From the NCBI GenBank assembly GCA_902587295.1, contig CACIKS010000002.1, positions 34,134 to 98,133 on the forward strand: DNA of 64,000 nt. Direction: 5' to 3'. The first letter of the stretch is position 1, and the number at the start of each line of letters is the position of its first letter. Below are positions 20,841-34,487 of the stretch, piece by piece. The position numbers and the translations under genes are program-made. The stretch comes from an uncultured Pelagibacteraceae bacterium. GTDB lineage: Bacteria; Pseudomonadota; Alphaproteobacteria; Pelagibacterales; Pelagibacteraceae. The notes beneath the pieces are model-generated. The model was not told where the DNA came from. It did no database searches and worked only from the letters and a program-made list of their open reading frames with translations.

Positions 20841-23171
20841 TTAATAAAGATGTTTTTGAAAGTCGATAAACATATTTTTTATACCTTCTGGATTTCCTAA
20901 ATTTTTTTCTCCATCTAAGAGGGCTTTATATTTAAGTATTATTAAATCACTCAATCTATTAATATCTAATTCTTCAACACCGCCCTCAACATATTTGCTT
21001 AATACGAAATCTATAAATTCTTTTTGCTTATCATTTAGGCTTTGATAAATTTTATTCTCTGCTTTACTAACTCTTGTTGCTCTTGGAATAGGTTTCTTTT
21101 GATAAGCAATATATTCAAGCACATCAAATAAATCGCTATTTTCTGCTTCAATTAAAGTCTGAATTGATTTTAAATCTGGTTTAGCAAAACCATTATCCTC
21201 TAATTTTTTTAATAATGTATTTCTTGTAATAGGTGACGACCAAAGTTTTCTTAATTCCTCTTCACTTTTTAAGATACTTGGTAAAGTAATGGTATTAAAT
21301 AGTTTCTTTATAAACTCTTCTGCAGTAACAGGTTGTCCTTGAAAATAGAATAGGGAAGTAGACATCGATTTAATAGTTAACTCTTTTCCTTCAGCAAGCT
21401 TAATCACTATTTTTTCTCTTGGAGGTTTTGGTTCTGGCGGTTCTTCACCTCCACCTTCCTCACCAGGTTCAAAAGGTTTTTCTGGTTTTTCCTCAGGCGG
21501 TTCTTCAGGAATAGGTTCACCATCCCATTCAGGGTCTGAAAAGTTTGCAGAAGCTCCAACAAAATCAACTATCGTGAAATAAAACTTATCTTCAAATAAT
21601 CTTGTTCCTCTACCAATTATTTGTTTAAATTCAATCATGTTGTTTACCGGTCTCATTAAAACTATATTTCTTATATTTAGTGCATCAACACCAGTACTTA
21701 GTTTTTGACTAGTGGTTAAAATGGTTGGTAATGTTTTTTCATTATCTTGGAATTGTCTAAGATGAGTATCTCCTGTTTTGGTATCTTTAGCTGTTACTCT
21801 GACACAATAGTCTGCAGGTGGATTCACTGAAACTTGATTAATTAAATCTCTTACCATTCCAGCATGAGCAATACTTGCACAGAAAACTAAAGTTTTTTCT
21901 TTTGGATTAATACTATCAAGCATCAACTTAACTCTTTTTTTTTCTCTTTCTTCTATAACAATTCTTTTATTAAAATCTTTTTCTTCAAATACTTCACCCT
22001 CATTTATTTCTTCTTCACCAGATAGAACATCATCATCGCCTGTATAAACATATTCATCCATTGTTGTTTGAATTCTCTTAACTTTAAATGGTGTTAAGAA
22101 ACCATCTTTAATTCCATCTTTAAGAGAGTATGTGTAAACAGGTTCACCAAAGTAAGCATAAGTGTCTGCATTAAATTTTCTTTTAGGTGTTGCTGTTAAA
22201 CCAATTTGAACCGCTGATGAAAAATATTCCATTATTCCTCTCCATCTACTTTCATCTTTAGCTCCACCCCTATGACATTCATCAATAATTACTAAATCAA
22301 AAAAATCAGCAGGGTATTGACCAAAGTAAGGTTCTTTTTCTGGACCAGACATAAAGCTTTGAAATATTGTAAAGAAGATAGAACTATTTGTGGGAACAGA
22401 ACCTTTTTTTCTAACATCACTAGGCGTAATTCTAAGCAAAGCATTCTCTTCAAACGCTCCAAATGCATTAAAAGCTTGATTAGCTAATATATTTCTATCA
22501 GCCAAGAATAATATTCTTGGTAGTCTTTTACCATCTCTTTGCTTATTCCATCTTGCTTGGAATAATTTCCAAGCTATATGAAAGGCAATAACTGTTTTAC
22601 CAGTACCTGTTGCAAGAGTTAAAAGTATTCTTTGTTGATTGTCTGCTATAGCATCTAAAGCATTATTGATTGCTATTTCTTGGTAATACCGTGGTTCTCT
22701 AATGCCTTTAAAAGGCTCAAAATTTACAGAGTCAAACTTGCTAGACCATTCATTTTTTTCTTTAAAAGTTTTAATCCATAATTCATCAGGTGTTGGAAAT
22801 TTATCAACCTCACCTTCTGAGGTGATAAACATTTCACCTTTTTCATTTTTAGAATAATTAATTTCATAAATTTTATGACCATTTGAAGAATAGCTAGTTA
22901 ATAACTTTAATTTTTGTGCATAGTCTTTTGCTTGGCTAACACCATCACTTACATTAAATTCATCACTTTTAGCTTCAATAACTGCTAGTTTTCTATTCTT
23001 ATAAATAAGAACATAATCAGCTCTAATAATACCTGCTCTTATACCTCCTGGTTTTATTTCACCATTTGTTATTTTGAATTCTCTTCTAACGAAACTGCCC
23101 TTAACATCTCCCCAACCAGCTTCTTTTATCTTTGGGTCAATTAATTCTGCTCTTGTCTCTGCTTCGTTCAT
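20841..23171 (-). CDS. hsdR: Type I restriction endonuclease subunit R (EcoEI-like helicase/nuclease)
   Basis: HSDR_N region (IEAKSD), Walker A LATGTGKTVIAF, DECHRGGAKDESRW, helicase motif QIIGRGTRLFEDK, Pro/Glu-rich linker then EcoEI-type C-terminal region. Confidence 0.95.
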   Translation of the reverse strand: MNEAETRAELIDPKIKEAGWGDVKGSFVRREFKITNGEIKPGGIRAGIIRADYVLIYKNRKLAVIEAKSDEFNVSDGVSQAKDYAQKLKLLTSYSSNGHKIYEINYSKNEKGEMFITSEGEVDKFPTPDELWIKTFKEKNEWSSKFDSVNFEPFKGIREPRYYQEIAINNALDAIADNQQRILLTLATGTGKTVIAFHIAWKLFQARWNKQRDGKRLPRILFLADRNILANQAFNAFGAFEENALLRITPSDVRKKGSVPTNSSIFFTIFQSFMSGPEKEPYFGQYPADFFDLVIIDECHRGGAKDESRWRGIMEYFSSAVQIGLTATPKRKFNADTYAYFGEPVYTYSLKDGIKDGFLTPFKVKRIQTTMDEYVYTGDDDVLSGEEEINEGEVFEEKDFNKRIVIEEREKKRVKLMLDSINPKEKTLVFCASIAHAGMVRDLINQVSVNPPADYCVRVTAKDTKTGDTHLRQFQDNEKTLPTILTTSQKLSTGVDALNIRNIVLMRPVNNMIEFKQIIGRGTRLFEDKFYFTIVDFVGASANFSDPEWDGEPIPEEPPEEKPEKPFEPGEEGGGEEPPEPKPPREKIVIKLAEGKELTIKSMSTSLFYFQGQPVTAEEFIKKLFNTITLPSILKSEEELRKLWSSPITRNTLLKKLEDNGFAKPDLKSIQTLIEAENSDLFDVLEYIAYQKKPIPRATRVSKAENKIYQSLNDKQKEFIDFVLSKYVEGGVEELDINRLSDLIILKYKALLDGEKNLGNPEGIKNMFIDFQKHLY

Positions 23172-24235
23172 GCTGCTTTATTTTGTATTTCTTGAGTAAG
23201 TATTGATGATTTTAGAGCTTCAAAACTTTGTTTTTGTTTTTTATAATTTATACGTAGCTTATGAAGATTATTTTCTATCTTTTCAAAGGCATTAACTATT
23301 TGGGACTGTTCGTCAACGGATTCTGGAAATCTAATCTTTAAATCTTTTATTGAAGAAAAAGAGATAACTGGCTGTGCAGCGTGACGTGCAAAACTCCGCA
23401 TATTTATAGAAGATAATATCAGAGAAAGGAATTTGAGATTAAAATCGTATTTGTAAGAGTGGGTATACATTGCATTATCTGTTAACCAAATTTTCTCATT
23501 AACATAATGGACATTACCGCAATAAGCTCCAACTCTTCCAATCAAAACATTTTTCCCATCTAAATTAAAATCATTATGGTTTCCAGCAATTCCATTTCCA
23601 CCATAAACTTTGATATTTCCTTCTGAATTCATTTTATTCTTTGGTAGAAATTTACCTGAACTAACTTTAAATAATGAGCCAAGTGGACTACTAATAAACT
23701 TACTATCATATCTATCAAGCAAATCTGGCAATATCTTTGATGTTACAGTTGTGGCTGCTTCTAATTTTTTATTATTTAACGAAATAGATTTATCAATCTC
23801 AGCAAATGCTGCCTCAAGTTTTGCCACTATTTGCTGTTGTTTTTCGACTGATGTTGGGTAAGTTATTTTTAATAATCTAAAATTTTTCATAGAAAGATTT
23901 CTTTGAGCCGTTCCTCTTCCAAGTTGGTAAATAGTGCTATTTAATGAAAGTATAGTTTTATCTAGAAAACCTTGTGATAAATCTTTTGTTTTAGGCGATA
24001 ATGTTAATCCGCTATCATTAAGAAAAAACTTATCTTTAACAAAGCGCGTACATTGTTCTGACATAGCGAAACGTGAAATAACAACTCTATCTTGTCGATT
24101 TGTTTTATCTATAAAAAATGTTTCACCTCCACCTCCATACACTGGATAAACTGTTCCACTATCTTTTCTCCTAACAACTCTTGTTCCATACTCTATGTTA
24201 CATATTTCATCTATAGTCGAAGTCTTCCACATCAT
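23168..24235 (-). CDS. hsdS: Type I restriction-modification specificity subunit S
   Basis: Two target-recognition domains, each with a YGGGGE/YGGNGIAG-type motif and conserved helix (EKQQQIVAKLEAAFAEIDK); overlaps hsdM and hsdR by 4 nt. Confidence 0.93.
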   Translation of the reverse strand: MMWKTSTIDEICNIEYGTRVVRRKDSGTVYPVYGGGGETFFIDKTNRQDRVVISRFAMSEQCTRFVKDKFFLNDSGLTLSPKTKDLSQGFLDKTILSLNSTIYQLGRGTAQRNLSMKNFRLLKITYPTSVEKQQQIVAKLEAAFAEIDKSISLNNKKLEAATTVTSKILPDLLDRYDSKFISSPLGSLFKVSSGKFLPKNKMNSEGNIKVYGGNGIAGNHNDFNLDGKNVLIGRVGAYCGNVHYVNEKIWLTDNAMYTHSYKYDFNLKFLSLILSSINMRSFARHAAQPVISFSSIKDLKIRFPESVDEQSQIVNAFEKIENNLHKLRINYKKQKQSFEALKSSILTQEIQNKAA

Positions 24236-25686
24236 AAAAATTCCTTAATTTTATTCAATGCTACAGAAGATTGTTTATCAAGTTCTTCTATCTCAGTCAG
24301 AATCTCTTTTGTTGTTCTGTTGTCTATTTCTTCAACCTTGTTAGGGTTTTGAACTCCTAAATCACACGTATCTTTGTTTATTTTTTCTATCTCCATAGTC
24401 CAACTATTGTCACTTAGCTTTTGTGTTTTGGCTAATTTAATAAAATCAGTTAAGTCATTATCATTTAACGAATTAGTTTTACCCATGCTCCTTCCCACAT
24501 TGAGTTGGTAGTACCAAAGTTTTTTTGTTGGTTTTCCTTTTTCAAAAAATAAAACTACTGTCTTAACCCCAGTTCCAAGGAAAGCTCCACTTGGTAAATC
24601 AAGTACTGCAAATAAATTACATTCTTCAAGCAGTTGTTTTCTAAGTGCTATGCTTGCGTTATCTGTATTACTTAAAAAAGTATTCTTAATAACAACACCG
24701 CATCTTCCTCCAGCTTTTAATTTTTTTATAAAGTGTTGAAGGAATAGATAGGCAGTTTCTCCAGTTTTAATCGGAAAATTTTCTTGGATTTGTTCTTTTT
24801 CTTTTCCGCCAAAGGGAGGGTTAGCAAGAATAACATCAACTCTATCTTTGTTTTGTATTTCTTGAATATTATCTTCTAAAGTATTTTTATGAATAATATT
24901 AGGACTTTCAATTCCATGAAGTATCATATTCATAATACCAATAATGTAAGCTAAAGTTTTTTTTTCAACTCCATAAAATGATTTTGATTGAAGTATTTTA
25001 AGCTCTGAAGTGGTCAGAGATTTTAATTTACTCATATGCTCAAATGCTTCAACTAAAAATCCAGCACTACCAACAGCTCCATCATAAATAGTTTCTCCAA
25101 CTTTGGGATTAATTACTTTAACAATGGATTTAATAAGTGGTCTTGGCGTGTAGTATTCGCCTCCATTACGACCAGCGTTACCCATGTTTTTAATTTTTTC
25201 TTCATATAATGCACTTAGTTCATGTTTTTGTTTATTGCTTCTAAACTGAAGATTATCAACTTCATCTATTACTCCTCTCAGAGTATAACCATCTTGAAGT
25301 TTATTCTTAAGTTCTGAAAATATTTCTCCTATTTTGTATTCAAGAGTATCAAAGCTTTCTGCTTTATTTCTAAATGAAGAGAGATAAGGAAATAGTTTAT
25401 CATCAACAAATTTCTTTAAATCAGGGCCAGTAAGAATTTTATTAAAATCTACTTTTCCACCTTTTGTTTTAATAATTGCCCAAGAAGACCATTGATACTC
25501 TTTATCTAATACAGGTTTAAATTTCTTATTTTCTAATGATGCTTTTGTTTCTTTCTCTTTTTCATAATCATCTAACCATTTAAGAAACAATATCCATGAA
25601 GATTGTTCTGCATAATCTAGCTCAGTGCTACAACCAGCATCCTTCCAAAGGATATCATCAATATTTTTAAAAGTTTGTTCAAACAT
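24232..25686 (-). CDS. hsdM: Type I restriction-modification DNA methyltransferase subunit M
   Basis: GGEYYTPRPLIKSIV, GAVGSAGFLVEAFEHM, VILANPPFGG (N6-adenine MTase motif IV NPPF). Confidence 0.96.
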   Translation of the reverse strand: MFEQTFKNIDDILWKDAGCSTELDYAEQSSWILFLKWLDDYEKEKETKASLENKKFKPVLDKEYQWSSWAIIKTKGGKVDFNKILTGPDLKKFVDDKLFPYLSSFRNKAESFDTLEYKIGEIFSELKNKLQDGYTLRGVIDEVDNLQFRSNKQKHELSALYEEKIKNMGNAGRNGGEYYTPRPLIKSIVKVINPKVGETIYDGAVGSAGFLVEAFEHMSKLKSLTTSELKILQSKSFYGVEKKTLAYIIGIMNMILHGIESPNIIHKNTLEDNIQEIQNKDRVDVILANPPFGGKEKEQIQENFPIKTGETAYLFLQHFIKKLKAGGRCGVVIKNTFLSNTDNASIALRKQLLEECNLFAVLDLPSGAFLGTGVKTVVLFFEKGKPTKKLWYYQLNVGRSMGKTNSLNDNDLTDFIKLAKTQKLSDNSWTMEIEKINKDTCDLGVQNPNKVEEIDNRTTKEILTEIEELDKQSSVALNKIKEFL

Positions 25687-27492: not shown

Positions 27493-28077
27493 TTATTTGT
27501 AGTGTTCGTTTAACAGAAAGTCTGAAAATTCTTTGGTTAAGATCGCTATTGTTAAACTATTATTTTCCCAATTTTTTTGTTTTGAAAATTCTTCTGTCAT
27601 ATCATAGCAAGCAACTTCTGCGAAGCCACCGCTTTTTAACCAAAAATACACATTATGAATTTTACTTTTTCCTGTCGGATCTGCTGCATAAGATCGTTCT
27701 TTAGCATCTACTTTTTGGGAATTTATAAATATTTCTGATAATCCTTTAATTGCTTTTTCATATTCTATTTTACAATCTTTTATATTTTTAAAAATTTTTA
27801 ATCCTCTTATTCCATAAATTTTATATTTTTTGTCCTTTGGTTTGTAAATGAAATCCATTGTATCATAAGAATCGGAATTAACAGGTATTGTTATACTTAG
27901 AAATTTTTTATCTTTATAAAAATCTTTAACACCGTTATTTATTTCCTCCTTACTAAAATGATCCAGCGCACTATCCCCAACACTTATTCCTTCAATCTGA
28001 AAGTCTCTTATATCATCTGCCTTTGACGAAGTTATGAAGTATAAGCTCAGAATGATGATAACTAAAAGTTTTTTCAT
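27493..28077 (-). CDS. Small secreted protein, DIRDFQIEG family (paralogue 3)
   Basis: MKKLLVIIILSLYFITSSKADDIRDFQIEGISVGDSALDHFSKEEI; ATG at 28077 preferred. Confidence 0.8.
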   Translation of the reverse strand: MKKLLVIIILSLYFITSSKADDIRDFQIEGISVGDSALDHFSKEEINNGVKDFYKDKKFLSITIPVNSDSYDTMDFIYKPKDKKYKIYGIRGLKIFKNIKDCKIEYEKAIKGLSEIFINSQKVDAKERSYAADPTGKSKIHNVYFWLKSGGFAEVACYDMTEEFSKQKNWENNSLTIAILTKEFSDFLLNEHYK

Positions 28078-28078
28078 T

Positions 28079-28651
28079 TTAATTGGCTGTTTGTAACCAT
28101 TCATCAAACTCTGGACTATCAATCGATACTAAAATGTATTTATCTTTTGAAAAATCATCGTTCCAGTCGTAGCATACTAAGTCAATTGTACCTGTTCTGA
28201 AATAATAGTTTACTTGTTTAACCCAACTTCTTTTAGTTTTATCAGCCTCGTGCAAACGTTTCTTGCCTTCACGTCTATTTGCATTTGTAAATATTTTTTT
28301 TAAATCTTTATCAATTTTCTTTTGTTTTGTGAGACATTGGGCCATATTATCAAAAAATAATCCTCCACTAATTGCATAAATCATGTATTTTTTATCATTT
28401 TTCATAAAGACAACTTGGACGTCTTTATAAGTTTCGAAAGAATTTAATACTAACTGCGCATCATAAAATTTTCCGTCTGAATTTGGATAACTATTTTTTC
28501 TAATACTTTTTTTTATTTTCTCTTCACTAAAATAGTTTAATGCACTTTCATAGAGGCTCATTCCTTCAATCTGAAAATCAGTGATATCATCCCCTTGTGA
28601 TGGCGTTATTAAGCATAAGCTTAAAACTATAATGGCTAAAAGTTTTTTCAT
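28079..28651 (-). CDS. Small secreted protein, DIRDFQIEG family (paralogue 4)
   Basis: MKKLLAIIVLSLCLITPSQGDDITDFQIEGMSLYESALNYFSEEKI; overlaps the next gene by 4 nt. Confidence 0.8.
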   Translation of the reverse strand: MKKLLAIIVLSLCLITPSQGDDITDFQIEGMSLYESALNYFSEEKIKKSIRKNSYPNSDGKFYDAQLVLNSFETYKDVQVVFMKNDKKYMIYAISGGLFFDNMAQCLTKQKKIDKDLKKIFTNANRREGKKRLHEADKTKRSWVKQVNYYFRTGTIDLVCYDWNDDFSKDKYILVSIDSPEFDEWLQTAN

Positions 28652-29235
28652 TCAAAGGGTTTGCCAGTTAGAAACTTGGTAAACTTATCGGAGGTTAAAG
28701 CGATAGTTAGGTTATCACCCCACCCTTTGCTTTTAGTAATTTTGTCTGACCAATCAACACAATAAAGGTCAACAGATCCACGATCTAAAAAAAAAACATA
28801 TCCATAAGTAAAACTTTCACCAGATTTATCGGCACCGTGTGGAGCGTCATGCTTAGTATATTTAATGTTTATTATATTATCTTGCAAAGTATTTAAAATT
28901 TTTCTCATTTGTATTTTGCAATCCTCTGTGCTTCTTTTAGTAAAATTAATTTTTCCACTAACCCCATGAATTTCATATTTTTTGTCATTAGGCTTGAAGC
29001 TTACTTGCACACGGTCATATTCATTTGGAATAATTGGCAAAGTAATGCTCATAAACTTATTGTCTCTATATTTGTATGCAGTTTTTTTTTGTTTTTCAAT
29101 CTCACTTTCGCTTAGGTAATCTAATACACTTTGCCCAAGACTTACTCCTTCAATTTCAAAGTCTCTAATATCATCCGCCTTCAAGTGGTTTGTTAAAAGT
29201 AAACTAAAAAATAATATTGTTAAAAACTGTTTCAT
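28648..29235 (-). CDS. Small secreted protein, DIRDFQIEG family (paralogue 5)
   Basis: MKQFLTILFFSLLLTNHLKADDIRDFEIEGVSLGQSVLDYLSESEI; overlaps neighbours. Confidence 0.8.
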   Translation of the reverse strand: MKQFLTILFFSLLLTNHLKADDIRDFEIEGVSLGQSVLDYLSESEIEKQKKTAYKYRDNKFMSITLPIIPNEYDRVQVSFKPNDKKYEIHGVSGKINFTKRSTEDCKIQMRKILNTLQDNIINIKYTKHDAPHGADKSGESFTYGYVFFLDRGSVDLYCVDWSDKITKSKGWGDNLTIALTSDKFTKFLTGKPFE

Positions 29236-29831
29236 CTCTGCATGAATTTTATATAATCTTCAGAGGCAATACTAACGGCACCTGTATCATTAAAGCCGGT
29301 TTTTTTATCATATTGTGTGCACCACACTCTTACCATGCCCTTTTGAGAAGGAAAAGCATACCTGCTTACATGAGCCTTAGAGTTTCCCATATCTTTGTCT
29401 TGGTAATCAGCAACATAATCAATAAAATTTGCACCATTTAGAATTGTAGATATCTCTTTTACTACCTCATCTTTAAATTTTATACATTCTTGAAATCTAT
29501 TTTCGAATTGTTTTACACCTTTAATAGAATGAATAATAAATTTTTTATCATCGACCTTTACATGAAATCCTAATTTTGAATATAATTCAGAATTTGTATT
29601 TGTGGCAAGAACATTAAAAACTCCTTTATCATAAGTAGTAATTGGAAAATTTGAAATTTCAGACTTTGTATAAAAATCTAATAAACTATCCCCAATACTT
29701 ATACCTTCAATCTCTAAGTTTTTGATATCATCAGATTTGGCCCAAGTTTGAAAGCTTAAGGTCAAAAGATGCAAAAATAAATATTTTATAATTATAAATT
29801 TTTTCACCTCAAAATAGTAAACAAATATCAA
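29232..29831 (-). CDS. Small secreted protein, divergent DIRDFQIEG family member (paralogue 6)
   Basis: KSDDIKNLEIEGISIGDSLLDFYTKSEI after a hydrophobic leader; 4-nt overlap with paralogue 5. Confidence 0.75.
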   Translation of the reverse strand: MIFVYYFEVKKFIIIKYLFLHLLTLSFQTWAKSDDIKNLEIEGISIGDSLLDFYTKSEISNFPITTYDKGVFNVLATNTNSELYSKLGFHVKVDDKKFIIHSIKGVKQFENRFQECIKFKDEVVKEISTILNGANFIDYVADYQDKDMGNSKAHVSRYAFPSQKGMVRVWCTQYDKKTGFNDTGAVSIASEDYIKFMQR

Positions 29832-29888: not shown

Positions 29889-31790
29889 ATGAAGAGATTC
29901 TTAGCAACCCTTTTGTTATTTGGAATATTGTTGAGCAATCAATATGCGTGGTCATCATGGATTACCAAAAAATCAGATACATCTGAAAAAGTGGAAAGCA
30001 TAGAAAAAGAATACGCAGATGGTTTTATATCTAAATCAGAATGTAATAAACAAAAATCAAAAGTTCTTAAATTAAAAAAAATATCAGAAACAATATGTGA
30101 CAACGTTAAAGTAAAAGTTGCACAATCATCATGGATAAAAAAAAAATCGAAAGAAGAAATTAAAAAAGAAAAATCAAATTACATACAAAAAAAAGAAAAA
30201 GAGACAAAAAAGGAATTTGTAAAAAAAAAAAAGAATTTATCAAAATCTATTAAAAAATGGATTTCCAAGAAAAAAACTAAAGATAAACGGCATTTTAATT
30301 CTGTAGCGCAACTACCTAAATCTGATTACTATTTTACTGCTGTTGACGGAAGTGGAAACACATTTATTGGTTATTTAAATGGGAATGAAAATGAAGACAG
30401 CATAAGTGTAAGCGGCCAAAGTATGCTCAAAATTTCAGATGGAAAAGCTTTTCAAAATAATAAAAAAACACAGTGTGATGTTCGATCAGAAATTTTAAAA
30501 GCGGATAAATTAATATTTAATGGTGTAGTAATTATAAAGTGTCCAACAAAAGAATTTATTGGTAGTTGGACCCAAACAGGTTCAGAAGGTTTTGGTATTG
30601 CTACCTCTGAGAAAACTAGACTTGAATTCAATTTTTCACAAAGTAAAAAAATAATAAATGCAAAACATACTGAAAATAAAACTAAGACAAAAATAGTTAA
30701 AAAAGACATTCAAAGTGAAAAAATCAAAGATAGTATTTGTCCAGAGATAAAATTAGTAGATAATAATCAGGTCTTTAATAGTTCAGATTGTAAGACTAAA
30801 GTTGCGAAAATTCAGGTAACAGATGGAAATTTTTCTTTGATTGGTTTTGCTACAGACAACGAAGAAGTCCAACGCTTTTCAGTTGATGGTAGACCAATTA
30901 AGCTTAAGTCTGATGGAAGTTTTAAATACAATGGAAAAACAAATTCATCGAAAGATGTTTATCTTGTTGCTACAGATAAATTTGGAAAAATAACTGAATT
31001 GAAAGTAATTATAGAAGTTTTATCACAAAAAGAAAAATTCATTAATAAACAAAAATATTACGCTTTATTAATTGGCAATAGCAAATATCAAAAATGGGAT
31101 AATTTAACGTCACCCGTTAATGACATTGATAAAATTGCAAACACACTAGAAAAAAAATATAAATTTCAAAAAGTGAAAATTTTAAAAGATGCATCTAAAG
31201 ATGAAATTATAAATGCATTTTATGACATGCAGGAAATTGTTGGCAAAGACGGCAATTTATTAATTTATTACTCTGGTCACGGTATGACTATAACAAGACA
31301 AGGAAAAGAAAAACATTTTTGGATACCCGTTGATGGCACCAAAGAGTACAAAGGAGGTGGTAGAAGTTGGTTATCCACGTCTTTTGTAAAGGACCAAGCA
31401 GACACACTATTAGCTTCGAAAGTTTTAATAATGGTTGATAGCTGTTTTTCTGGAACCTTTGTTTCAAAAGGTAGCCACAATTTAATTACTGAAGAGGAAA
31501 AAAGTATTAACAAACTGAATTTTTTAAAAATGAATGTTAATCGTATTGGACGAGAATATATTTCTTCAGGAGCAAATCAACAAGTTGAGGATACAAATGG
31601 AGGAAAATATTCTGCTTTTGCAAAAGTTTTCATTCAAAGTTTAGAAGATAATAATGGTCATTTATATTCTAAGATACTTCACGCAAAAATACATGAATAT
31701 TTAAATCCACTGACTGGCCAACAAGCGCAATATAGTTTTATTAAGAATGCAAACCATAGTAAAGGGGTTTTTGTTTTTTCAACAAGGTAG
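29889..31790 (+). CDS. Secreted caspase-like (peptidase C14/metacaspase-type) protein
   Basis: Signal peptide, SHOCT-like segment (ESIEKEYADGFISKSECNKQKSKVLKL), Ig-like region, then C14 core YYALLIGNSKYQKWDNLTSPVNDIDKIANTL with His motif YYSGHGM and Cys motif MVDSCFSGTF. Confidence 0.88.
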   Translation: MKRFLATLLLFGILLSNQYAWSSWITKKSDTSEKVESIEKEYADGFISKSECNKQKSKVLKLKKISETICDNVKVKVAQSSWIKKKSKEEIKKEKSNYIQKKEKETKKEFVKKKKNLSKSIKKWISKKKTKDKRHFNSVAQLPKSDYYFTAVDGSGNTFIGYLNGNENEDSISVSGQSMLKISDGKAFQNNKKTQCDVRSEILKADKLIFNGVVIIKCPTKEFIGSWTQTGSEGFGIATSEKTRLEFNFSQSKKIINAKHTENKTKTKIVKKDIQSEKIKDSICPEIKLVDNNQVFNSSDCKTKVAKIQVTDGNFSLIGFATDNEEVQRFSVDGRPIKLKSDGSFKYNGKTNSSKDVYLVATDKFGKITELKVIIEVLSQKEKFINKQKYYALLIGNSKYQKWDNLTSPVNDIDKIANTLEKKYKFQKVKILKDASKDEIINAFYDMQEIVGKDGNLLIYYSGHGMTITRQGKEKHFWIPVDGTKEYKGGGRSWLSTSFVKDQADTLLASKVLIMVDSCFSGTFVSKGSHNLITEEEKSINKLNFLKMNVNRIGREYISSGANQQVEDTNGGKYSAFAKVFIQSLEDNNGHLYSKILHAKIHEYLNPLTGQQAQYSFIKNANHSKGVFVFSTR

Positions 31791-31800
31791 TTTTAGGATT

Positions 31801-33078
31801 ATGAAAGTTTTTATTTTATTTTTTACTATTGTTTTTTTTCTACAACATGTCCAAGCAGCAGATAATAAATTTAAAAGAATGGACAAAGCAAATAATATGA
31901 AAAAAGTAAACATTACTGTTGGTTTTACAAATATGATCAGTAATGAGAAAATTAAAACTCTTAATAATGAACTATCCGAGTACAAAAAAATTTCAAATCA
32001 TATTTCAGACAAAGAAAAACCAGCTACAAAGAGAAAAAAATATAAAGGCTTAAGTCAAAATATTTACAGAAATAATGCAGGCAGTGTGGTTTACATTGGC
32101 AACCCATCAGCAAAAGGAACGGGTTCTGGTTTTTTAATAAATAAAGAAGAGGGTTTGATTTTAACGAATTGGCATGTAATTGATGGAGCTAAAAAAGTAT
32201 ATGTCTGGTTCAAACCAGAAGATCCAAACAAAATGGACGAGGATTTATTAATCAATGAACCAAGAATAGATGGAACTGTAATTAAGAAAAATAAAAGCAA
32301 AGATCTAGGTTTAATTAAAGTTTTGCGTGTTCCTAAAAATGCTAAGGCTCTTGTAATAAACAAAAAAATATATGTCGATGTAGGATCAACGGCATATTCA
32401 ATTGGTCATCCGAGTGGTCTAACCTGGACTTTTAATTCTGGAATGGTGACTCAAGTCAGGAAAGGTTTTAAATGGAGATATAAAAACTCTAGACATTTAG
32501 CAAATGTAATTCAGCACGAAGTTCCCACAAACCCAGGTAATTCAGGTGGACCATTATTTAATGAAAGGGGACATGTAATTGGAGTTAATTCTTTTAAAGA
32601 TTCCAAAGGCGAGGTGATAAACTTTTCAGTATCAATAGATGAGGTTGATAAATTCTTAAAACAAAAAATAATTGAGAAAAAGAAAAGTAAATACATACAA
32701 AAAAAATCTAAGCAAACTTGGATACAAAAAAAATCAAAGAAAGAAAATAGTAAAACAGAACAAATAAAGAAAATATTTCCTAACGCAAAAATTCATGATG
32801 AGAATAAAAATGGAACAACTGACACATGGTTCGTAGATAAAAATAAAAATGGAAAAATAGATAGAGCATTCATTGATGATAACGAAGATGGAATTATAGA
32901 AGCGATATTAGTTGATAAAGATGAAAACGGAAAATGGGATTTTCTATTCGTTGATAAAGATCTTGATGGAAATCCAGATGAAGCATTTATTGATGAAGAC
33001 CAAGACGGTAATCCCGATGTAGTTGCATACGATTACAATCAAGATGGTGAATGGGATAAATTTGAAAATGTTGGTTAA
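31801..33078 (+). CDS. Secreted trypsin-like (HtrA/S1C-type) serine protease with C-terminal DxDxDG calcium-binding-like repeats
   Basis: Signal peptide MKVFILFFTIVFFLQHVQA; TNWHVIDG, KDLGLIKV, NPGNSGGPLFN triad motifs; acidic repeat tail. ATG at 31801 preferred to the track start at 31747. Confidence 0.88.
   Translation: MKVFILFFTIVFFLQHVQAADNKFKRMDKANNMKKVNITVGFTNMISNEKIKTLNNELSEYKKISNHISDKEKPATKRKKYKGLSQNIYRNNAGSVVYIGNPSAKGTGSGFLINKEEGLILTNWHVIDGAKKVYVWFKPEDPNKMDEDLLINEPRIDGTVIKKNKSKDLGLIKVLRVPKNAKALVINKKIYVDVGSTAYSIGHPSGLTWTFNSGMVTQVRKGFKWRYKNSRHLANVIQHEVPTNPGNSGGPLFNERGHVIGVNSFKDSKGEVINFSVSIDEVDKFLKQKIIEKKKSKYIQKKSKQTWIQKKSKKENSKTEQIKKIFPNAKIHDENKNGTTDTWFVDKNKNGKIDRAFIDDNEDGIIEAILVDKDENGKWDFLFVDKDLDGNPDEAFIDEDQDGNPDVVAYDYNQDGEWDKFENVG
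32791..33063 (+). repeat. In-gene tandem repeats encoding ~13-14 aa D-x-[DN]-x-[DN]-G units
   Basis: Translation HDENKNGTTDTWFVDKNKNGKIDRAFIDDNEDGIIEAILVDKDENGKWDFLFVDKDLDGNPDEAFIDEDQDGNPDVVAYDYNQDGEWDKF: about seven units. Confidence 0.85.
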
Positions 33079-33089
33079 TTTTTTTTTTT

Positions 33090-34487
33090 ATGCTTTTTAA
33101 ACGATCATTAATATATATAAAATTTTCTTTTATTATATTTTTTTTTTCAACTACATATCTTAATGCAGGAGTAGATAATTGTGATAGATTTGGTCAAGCT
33201 GTAGAGGATAAAAAAGATTTTAATTATCCAACAAAAACTATTAACGACCTTGGTATTTTCTTTCAAAAAAAATTTACTATTAACGGAGTAGAAAAAATTA
33301 TAAGAGATATAAATAATTATCCTATAATTTATTTTTCGTTATATGAAAAAGATAAACTAAAAAATGGTACTGTAATAAAATCAATTAATAAAAATAATTT
33401 ATCAAAAATTTCTGATGAAGAATTAATTCTTTTAATTAAAAAAATCAATTATGGCAGTATAGAATATTTTAAGACATCAAGTAATACCGACTTAGTTAAA
33501 ATTTATGGAAAAGATTACGGGGGTATTTTCTTTTTAGTCGATCAACTATTTATAAATACAATAGGGGAAGTTGATGCAAAAAAAGGTTTTTTCACAATGA
33601 ATTATGATTATAAGCTGATATATGATCGACCGGATTTAAAATCTGAGGGAGTTTTGTTAAAAAATGACGAATGTACAATTAATACAAAATCATATGAAAC
33701 AAAATTTAGCGATATTTACCGACCTGATAAAGAAATATTAATAAAACAATTTGATAGGGACCGGGATAAGATAGAAGAAACTTTTGGATTTTATAATGAG
33801 AACGGTAATACTTATTTATTTCAATCTATTAAAGGTACGTCGAAAATAAGAGCAAAATTTAATTTTTCAAAATTTCCATTTGATACTCAACCATTAAAAA
33901 TTCAAATTATTTCATCTTTAAAAATAAATGAAGGGAATGAGACAACACAGATTTTTCCAACATCATCATTATTTAAGAACATAAAAAATTTTAAAGAAAA
34001 CAATTTTCTTGAAGAATGGAAAGTAAAAGACTTTGAAATTTCAAATAATTTAATTAATTTAGATAATAATAAATATGACTCTTTAAAAATTTCAATAAAT
34101 GTAAAAAGGAATTCTAATTATTATATTTTTAAAATAATAATTCCTGTTTTGTTAATTTTAGCAGTTGCATGGAGCGTTTTATGGATTCCGCCTAAAGAAG
34201 AATGGGTCGAGTCAAGGTTAACAACGTCGATTGTAGCCCTGTTATCTTTGATAGCTTATAACTTTGTTTTTTTAGATGATATTCCAAAATTAGATATACT
34301 TACCAGTTTAGATTTATTTATACTCTTATCTTATTTATTCTGCGCAATACCGATTTTTACAACAATTTTTCTAAGTAGATTATTAGATAAAAGTCCGAAA
34401 AGAGCTTACACAAGAAATAAATCTATAAGAATTTATGGAGGAACAATTTATATTATTTTTAACGCCTTCATTTTTCTACCAATTTAA
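33090..34487 (+). CDS. Pentameric ligand-gated ion channel (Cys-loop receptor superfamily) homologue
   Basis: Signal peptide; Pro-loop FPFDTQPLKIQI; M1 YYIFKIIIPVLLILAVAWSVLWI; M2 ESRLTTSIVALLSLIAYNFVFLDDIPK; M3 LTSLDLFILLSYLFCAIPIFTTI; C-terminal M4 IYIIFNAFIFLPI. Confidence 0.87.
   Translation: MLFKRSLIYIKFSFIIFFFSTTYLNAGVDNCDRFGQAVEDKKDFNYPTKTINDLGIFFQKKFTINGVEKIIRDINNYPIIYFSLYEKDKLKNGTVIKSINKNNLSKISDEELILLIKKINYGSIEYFKTSSNTDLVKIYGKDYGGIFFLVDQLFINTIGEVDAKKGFFTMNYDYKLIYDRPDLKSEGVLLKNDECTINTKSYETKFSDIYRPDKEILIKQFDRDRDKIEETFGFYNENGNTYLFQSIKGTSKIRAKFNFSKFPFDTQPLKIQIISSLKINEGNETTQIFPTSSLFKNIKNFKENNFLEEWKVKDFEISNNLINLDNNKYDSLKISINVKRNSNYYIFKIIIPVLLILAVAWSVLWIPPKEEWVESRLTTSIVALLSLIAYNFVFLDDIPKLDILTSLDLFILLSYLFCAIPIFTTIFLSRLLDKSPKRAYTRNKSIRIYGGTIYIIFNAFIFLPI

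Follow-up and report, generated by a model that had tools for sequence, protein, structure and literature searches.

The window, that is, the whole 64,000-nucleotide stretch of DNA analysed here, carries a same-strand operon in which a caspase-like protease gene is followed after 10 bp by an HtrA-like protease gene and, after a further 11 bp, by a channel gene, the last of the string (Table 1). The HtrA-like protease likely starts at 31801, the longest ORF beginning at 31747. A signal peptide was read by eye at the start of all three products, and His464 and Cys519 of the caspase-like protease are invariant in its family.

Table 1. Features of the channel operon, with positions in the window
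Feature	Position	Strand	Basis
Caspase-like (C14) protease with signal peptide	29889..31790	+	Pfam Peptidase_C14, 3.7e-21
HtrA-like trypsin-fold serine protease without PDZ	31801..33078	+	Pfam Trypsin_2, 2e-26; Do-family, 2e-30
PDZ-pLGIC subunit gene	33090..34487	+	465 aa, ATG start; PDB, NCBIfam, and Pfam matches to pLGICs
Predicted signal peptide, residues 1 to ~26	33090..33167	+	Read by eye, no predictor: basic residues first, then a hydrophobic segment and small residues ahead of GVDN
Divergent PDZ domain, residues 30–146	33177..33527	+	Family profile, Pfam, leave-clade-out profile, hhalign, AlphaFold model
Cys31, half of candidate disulfide, before the PDZ domain	33180..33182	+	Pair conserved in nearly all members
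Carboxylate-binding-loop motif D-L-G-I, residues 53–56	33246..33257	+	Gly in 33/34 members
Ligand-binding domain, residues 147–343	33528..34118	+	TIGR00860 match, 155–438; Pfam LBD in orthologue L017
Cys195, other half of candidate disulfide, in the LBD	33672..33674	+	Pair conserved in nearly all members
Pro-loop FPFDTQPL, residues 262–269	33873..33896	+	P263 and D265 in 43/43 members with residues there
Transmembrane domain M1–M4, residues 344–465	34119..34484	+	Pfam Neur_chan_memb, 349–442; GLIC alignment to residue 461
M2 pore helix, -2' E374 to 21' D397	34209..34280	+	Family conservation of pore positions

The C-terminus of the HtrA-like protease (32700–33078) contains Asp/Asn-rich repeats (DxNxNG/DxDxDG) resembling Ca-binding repeats. 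A W-I-x-K-K motif (SWITKKSD, TWIQKKSK) is common to the caspase and the serine protease (29889–33078) outside their catalytic domains, possibly as a shared docking or cleavage site. On the opposite strand, four members of an uncharacterised family (F1; ~200 aa, with a signal peptide, no Pfam match) stand in tandem at 27493–29831, and in several relatives F1 genes likewise border the channel locus. A complete type I restriction-modification gene set lies near the operon (20841–25686, minus strand), which suggests a variable genomic island.

Identity and anatomy of the channel

The ORF at 33090–34487 had been described in the original prediction as a homologue of pentameric ligand-gated ion channels (pLGICs) from a marine bacterium of streamlined type, and the description was borne out. 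Solved pLGICs in the PDB were matched at E-values from 1e-12 to 1e-14, namely sTeLIC (6fl9; 1.4e-14), DeCLIC (6v4a; 1.7e-14), ELIC (~4e-13), and GLIC (~1e-12), with the matches covering the later ligand-binding domain (LBD) and the transmembrane domain (TMD). An HMM search against the pLGIC families, proposed at the outset as a check, matched NCBIfam LGIC_1 at 1.5e-20 and Pfam Neur_chan_memb at 4.7e-6, the latter falling slightly short of the curated cut-off. Membership of the predicted subunit in the superfamily is well supported at the sequence level, and because homology implies fold, a beta-sandwich LBD and a four-helix TMD are expected. A full-length AlphaFold model from a five-sequence alignment reached a pLDDT of only 40, too low to be informative, although strands followed by four helices can be made out.

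The host was assigned to SAR11 because an orthologue with 77% identity (L017) comes from an uncultured Pelagibacteraceae isolate. The host genome measures 852 kb and is 76% complete. Orthologues of the channel were found in 14 of 101 relatives and in 48 of the 397 genomes of the order. Between the window and L017, dN/dS was 0.33 for the PDZ domain, 0.10 for the LBD, and 0.05 for the TMD; the values are rough because synonymous sites are near saturation, and every domain is under purifying selection.

The first LBD strands (FFLVDQLFINTIGEVDAKKGFFTMNYDYKLIYDRPDL) begin at residue ~147, and the Pfam LBD model matches residues 128–341 of the L017 orthologue. The Pro-loop, M1 (IIIPVLLILAVAW), and M2 (ESRLTTSIVALLSLIAYNFVFLDD) are present, and M4 runs to the C-terminus, as had been read from the sequence originally. 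P263, D265, and the pre-M1 residue R340 are invariant across the family. The window's M2 runs E374(-2')-S-R-L-T(2'), with V at 6', L at 9', A at 13', and F at 16'; of 44 family members, 42 carry E or D at -2', 43 carry L at 9', all 44 carry A at 13', and 41 carry F at 16'. This pattern resembles the pore residues of the cation-selective channels GLIC and ELIC. The alignment of the -2' Glu with GLIC, also claimed earlier, held, and since the position is acidic in 42 of the 44 members, a cation-selective pore remains a fair inference.

No classical Cys-loop had been apparent, and indeed no Cys flanks FPFD, so that the eukaryotic-type disulfide pair is absent from the channel sequence. A different pair, Cys31/Cys195, is conserved in nearly the whole family. 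Both residues are missing together in L018 and L020; L019 and L070 also lack the pair, the sole pre-pore Cys of each sitting elsewhere. Because the two residues recur and vanish together, a disulfide that links the N-terminus with the LBD is suggested.

A PDZ-type domain at the N-terminus

An extra N-terminal domain was part of the original prediction. Its existence was confirmed, but the stated ~190 residues before the LBD proved too many: the region comprises ~146 residues, divided between a signal peptide of ~26–29 residues and a separate domain of ~117. Searched alone, the window domain matched Pfam PDZ only weakly, below the Pfam cut-off (E 0.063 and 0.043). The family as a whole gave strong evidence: a profile from an alignment of 27 N-terminal domains of channels from the order had only PDZ domains or PDZ proteases among its 60 listed PDB matches. 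Its best match (8.8e-11) was summed over both PDZ repeats of 3wkl; single matched stretches reached 1.3e-8 with another RseP-type PDZ construct and 3.1e-7 with a Do-type protease. Taken singly, 14 of the 27 domains matched Pfam PDZ, at best with 1.6e-6.

As a leave-clade-out control, 684 sequences, comprising N-terminal domains and neighbouring ORFs, were searched with a profile from which the window's clade had been left out. This profile recovered the window domain at 8.1e-6 along with all members of the window's clade. Outside the channels it matched at E < 0.01 only two HtrA-type PDZ proteins, namely the HtrA-like L057 and the product of the ORF at 34–1278 of the window, which has two Pfam PDZ_2 matches. 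The reverse profile search retrieved several other-clade domains, and the hhalign probability was 97.3%. A profile of the window's clade alone found no match in the PDB, and the PDZ link required the wider family; on this ground, the domain is inferred to have drifted in that clade.

An AlphaFold model of residues 28–146 (pLDDT 66, pTM 0.60) kept the PDZ order of strands and helix. The matches listed by Foldseek and VIA-align 2 for this model were PDZ domains or PDZ proteases, among them DegS with an OMP-type peptide, at a modest Foldseek E-value (0.026) and VIA Z-scores of up to 6.6. With its middling confidence, the model supports the PDZ assignment and does not carry it. Taking profiles and model together, a PDZ fold for this domain is well supported. 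The hydrophobic-Gly-hydrophobic pattern of the carboxylate loop is present, in the window as an HtrA-like x-L-G-I, with the Gly in 33 of 34 members.

Small-molecule accessory domains (PBP, Cache) and a DeCLIC-type N-terminal domain were considered for the same region and had no sequence support, although absence from the listed structure matches excludes no family. The phmmer match to DeCLIC begins at DeCLIC residue 414 and covers the LBD and TMD only; the N-terminal region of the window channel is shorter and PDZ-like, though the lack of a match there does not in itself exclude a DeCLIC-type fold. PDZ-type domains also occur on pLGICs of another alphaproteobacterial family (L086, L087), the isolated L086 domain matching PDZ_2 at 1.6e-4. 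No further PDZ-pLGIC was detected with the SAR11 PDZ profile in 398 genomes across the phylum, where the long pLGICs examined were mostly PBP fusions.

Gene neighbourhoods in SAR11 relatives

The order caspase, HtrA-like protease, channel recurs in L018–L020 and L070–L074, where a divergent small regulator (F3) separates the last two genes; in L078, the contig stops after the protease. The full caspase type was found in 9 of the 397 genomes of the order, and in seven of these it lies within ~3.5 kb of a channel of the window's clade (Fisher p 1e-12). A counter-example, L115, carries the caspase and HtrA-like protease without a channel. In a different clade (L075 and L079), F3 is followed by PrsW, the channel, and the HtrA-like protease, the channel gene overlapping its two neighbours by 17 and 4 bp, so that a link between protease and channel is seen in two clades.

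PrsW was present in 12 of 101 SAR11 relatives, in 7 of the 14 that bear the channel against 5 of the 87 others (p 1e-4), and lay within ~3 kb of the channel in all seven channel-bearing relatives that have it. These co-occurrence statistics are not corrected for kinship. In L065, L067, L075, L076, L077, L079, and L080, the gene of this intramembrane protease and the PDZ-pLGIC gene share 4 to 23 bp, an overlap from which translational coupling of protease and channel is inferred.

F3 resembles a phage CII regulator (Phage_CP76 matched by 12 of 16 members, best 3.4e-7) and adjoins the channel in L113 and L114 too. Both F3 and PrsW are also found without the channel in island-like contexts, and for that reason the notion that every neighbour linkage reflects function was rejected. 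Channel-free F3 stands beside PrsW, DNA methylases, or other island genes in L117, L118, L121, and L122, and F3 may be a marker of variable SAR11 islands. Since no homologue of the channel was found in phage, plasmid, and viral-contig collections, there is no sign that the channel is phage- or plasmid-borne.

The channel tree separates PDZ-bearing subunits (33 tips, support 67) from PDZ-less ones of ~400 aa (9 tips, support 99). A Tat-type flavin amine oxidase gene adjoins the PDZ-less channel gene in seven loci (L059, L061, L063–L067; gaps of -4 to 10 bp), and a PDZ channel is nearby in six of the seven. Two PDZ-pLGIC genes stand in direct tandem in L062 (7823–10940) and L068 (7336–10448), separated by 10 bp in one case and overlapping by 19 bp in the other, and a two-subunit channel is possible there. 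The loci with an amine oxidase hint that amines may be ligands and that bacterial channels may be heteromeric, and the tandem PDZ and PDZ-less subunits of sister clades likewise suggest that some bacterial pLGICs are naturally heteromeric.

Possible gating of the channel and comparison with known systems

As judged from sequence and model, the locus encodes a pLGIC core preceded by an N-terminal domain of PDZ type and places the channel in one same-strand gene string with two proteases. PDZ domains recognise C-terminal peptides, and DegS is the periplasmic model for this activity. Given the conserved PDZ loop and the gene string with a caspase and a PDZ-less HtrA-like protease, the channel may be a sensor of periplasmic proteolysis or misfolding whose output is a cation pore. 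The product would be a periplasm-facing subunit of a pentameric cation channel with a PDZ domain atop each LBD, and the PDZ domains would form a ring above the channel. Their grooves may bind exposed periplasmic C-terminal peptides, which the co-encoded HtrA-like and caspase-like proteases, or PrsW in sister clades, would generate or lay open; binding would then shift the LBD and alter the open probability of the cation-selective pore. The logic would be that of DegS, whose PDZ domain senses peptides and thereby switches the protease, except that here the switched element would be an ion channel. A small co-ligand may still occupy the canonical site between LBDs.

That C-terminal peptides from co-encoded proteases gate the channel is a tentative inference, made without binding, current, or expression data. 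The complete scheme, a proteolysis-sensing pentameric channel whose PDZ domain reads C-termini made by the caspase, HtrA-like, or PrsW proteases and opens a cation pore, is rather unlikely when taken as a whole. Peptide gating draws inferential support from the pLGIC core, the PDZ assignment by three routes, the loop Gly, the PDZ dN/dS, and the acidic -2' ring, and further from the PDZ-less HtrA-like protease 11 bp upstream, the caspase before it, the trio in the clade, and the PrsW linkage. Against it stand the drift of the PDZ domain in the window's clade, the middling domain model, and the weak Foldseek E-values, as well as the position of the neighbours in variable islands and the occurrence of F3, PrsW, and the caspase with HtrA-like protease (L115) without the channel.

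Just as likely, and no less tentative, is an ordinary small-molecule-gated pLGIC, in which an amine, an amino acid, betaine, or protons would bind between LBDs and open the pore, while the PDZ domain would only tether the channel to a periplasmic partner, such as a protease or another subunit, or aid assembly. To our knowledge, all characterised prokaryotic pLGICs respond to small ligands or ions. The stronger constraint on LBD and TMD than on the PDZ domain (dN/dS 0.10 and 0.05 vs. 0.33) fits this reading, as do the amine oxidase genes within -4 to 10 bp of the PDZ-less channel in seven sister loci. However, the amine oxidase is missing from the window's clade, and loop conservation and the repeated protease linkage are less directly explained.

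A defence or self-killing module appears improbable. In such a module, attack on the envelope by a phage or predator would trigger the proteases to cut the PDZ cap or a partner, and the cation channel would depolarise and stop the cell. PADLOC defence models hit the caspase (1e-12) and the trypsin-like protein (4e-17), but the hits are to generic protease folds, and the channel itself has none. The type I restriction system at 20841–25686 and the CII-like regulator, which accompanies the channel at many loci and R-M-type genes at others, are compatible with defence, whereas no phage-borne homologue was found in the collections searched. The two proteases here, with their by-eye signal peptides, differ from the known cytosolic defence caspases. 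Least likely is that the PDZ domain of the window's clade has lost its peptide function and serves merely as a structural cap or assembly domain. In favour of this are the drift of the clade, the largest in the family, its profile without a PDB match, and the weak single-sequence PDZ match; against it stand a loop Gly (D-L-G-I) still kept in the clade, a model that preserves PDZ strand and helix order, and a PDZ dN/dS of 0.33.

For most bacterial pLGICs neither the natural ligand nor the role is known, and the well-understood peptide chemistry of PDZ domains together with a repeated protease neighbourhood opens the question to specific tests. The present evidence suggests, and does not demonstrate, that control of the channel lies with peptides or protein damage and not solely with a small transmitter. 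If true, the ligands of the neurotransmitter-receptor superfamily could extend from small molecules to peptides, and SAR11, the dominant ocean bacterial group, would signal envelope damage through a member of that family. SAR11 genomes are so small that any accessory gene kept is of interest.

No description of a PDZ-pLGIC, or of its linkage to PrsW or another protease, was found in the open literature searched, which leaves out most subscription papers and all bioRxiv preprints outside PMC. The pLGICs of SAR11/Pelagibacter were already listed in 2016, in a survey that discarded terminal parts and left PDZ domains unmentioned (Jaiteh et al. 2016, PMC4795631). What is new here is the PDZ domain on a SAR11 pLGIC and the protease operon, neither of which the original prediction had recognised.

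GLIC, ELIC, and sTeLIC share with the window channel the LBD, the Pro-loop FPFD, four TM helices, an acidic -2', and the 9'/13'/16' pore pattern, but they lack an N-terminal domain, whereas the window channel has a PDZ domain before the LBD and adjoining protease genes. DeCLIC (6v4a), a close match in LBD and TMD, does have an accessory periplasmic domain before the LBD, yet this consists of two Ca-binding lobes (PMC12664993) in contrast to the ~117-residue PDZ-type domain of the window. Other bacterial pLGICs with an accessory sensor domain, met as controls in other proteobacteria, are likewise N-terminal fusions; their domains bind small molecules, and the source describing them mentions neither PDZ nor proteases. 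The DegS/DegP-type proteases, with DegS among the structural matches listed, also have a periplasmic PDZ domain with a hydrophobic-Gly-hydrophobic loop. In those enzymes the PDZ domain is fused to the protease, whereas here it is carried by the channel and the neighbouring protease is without one.
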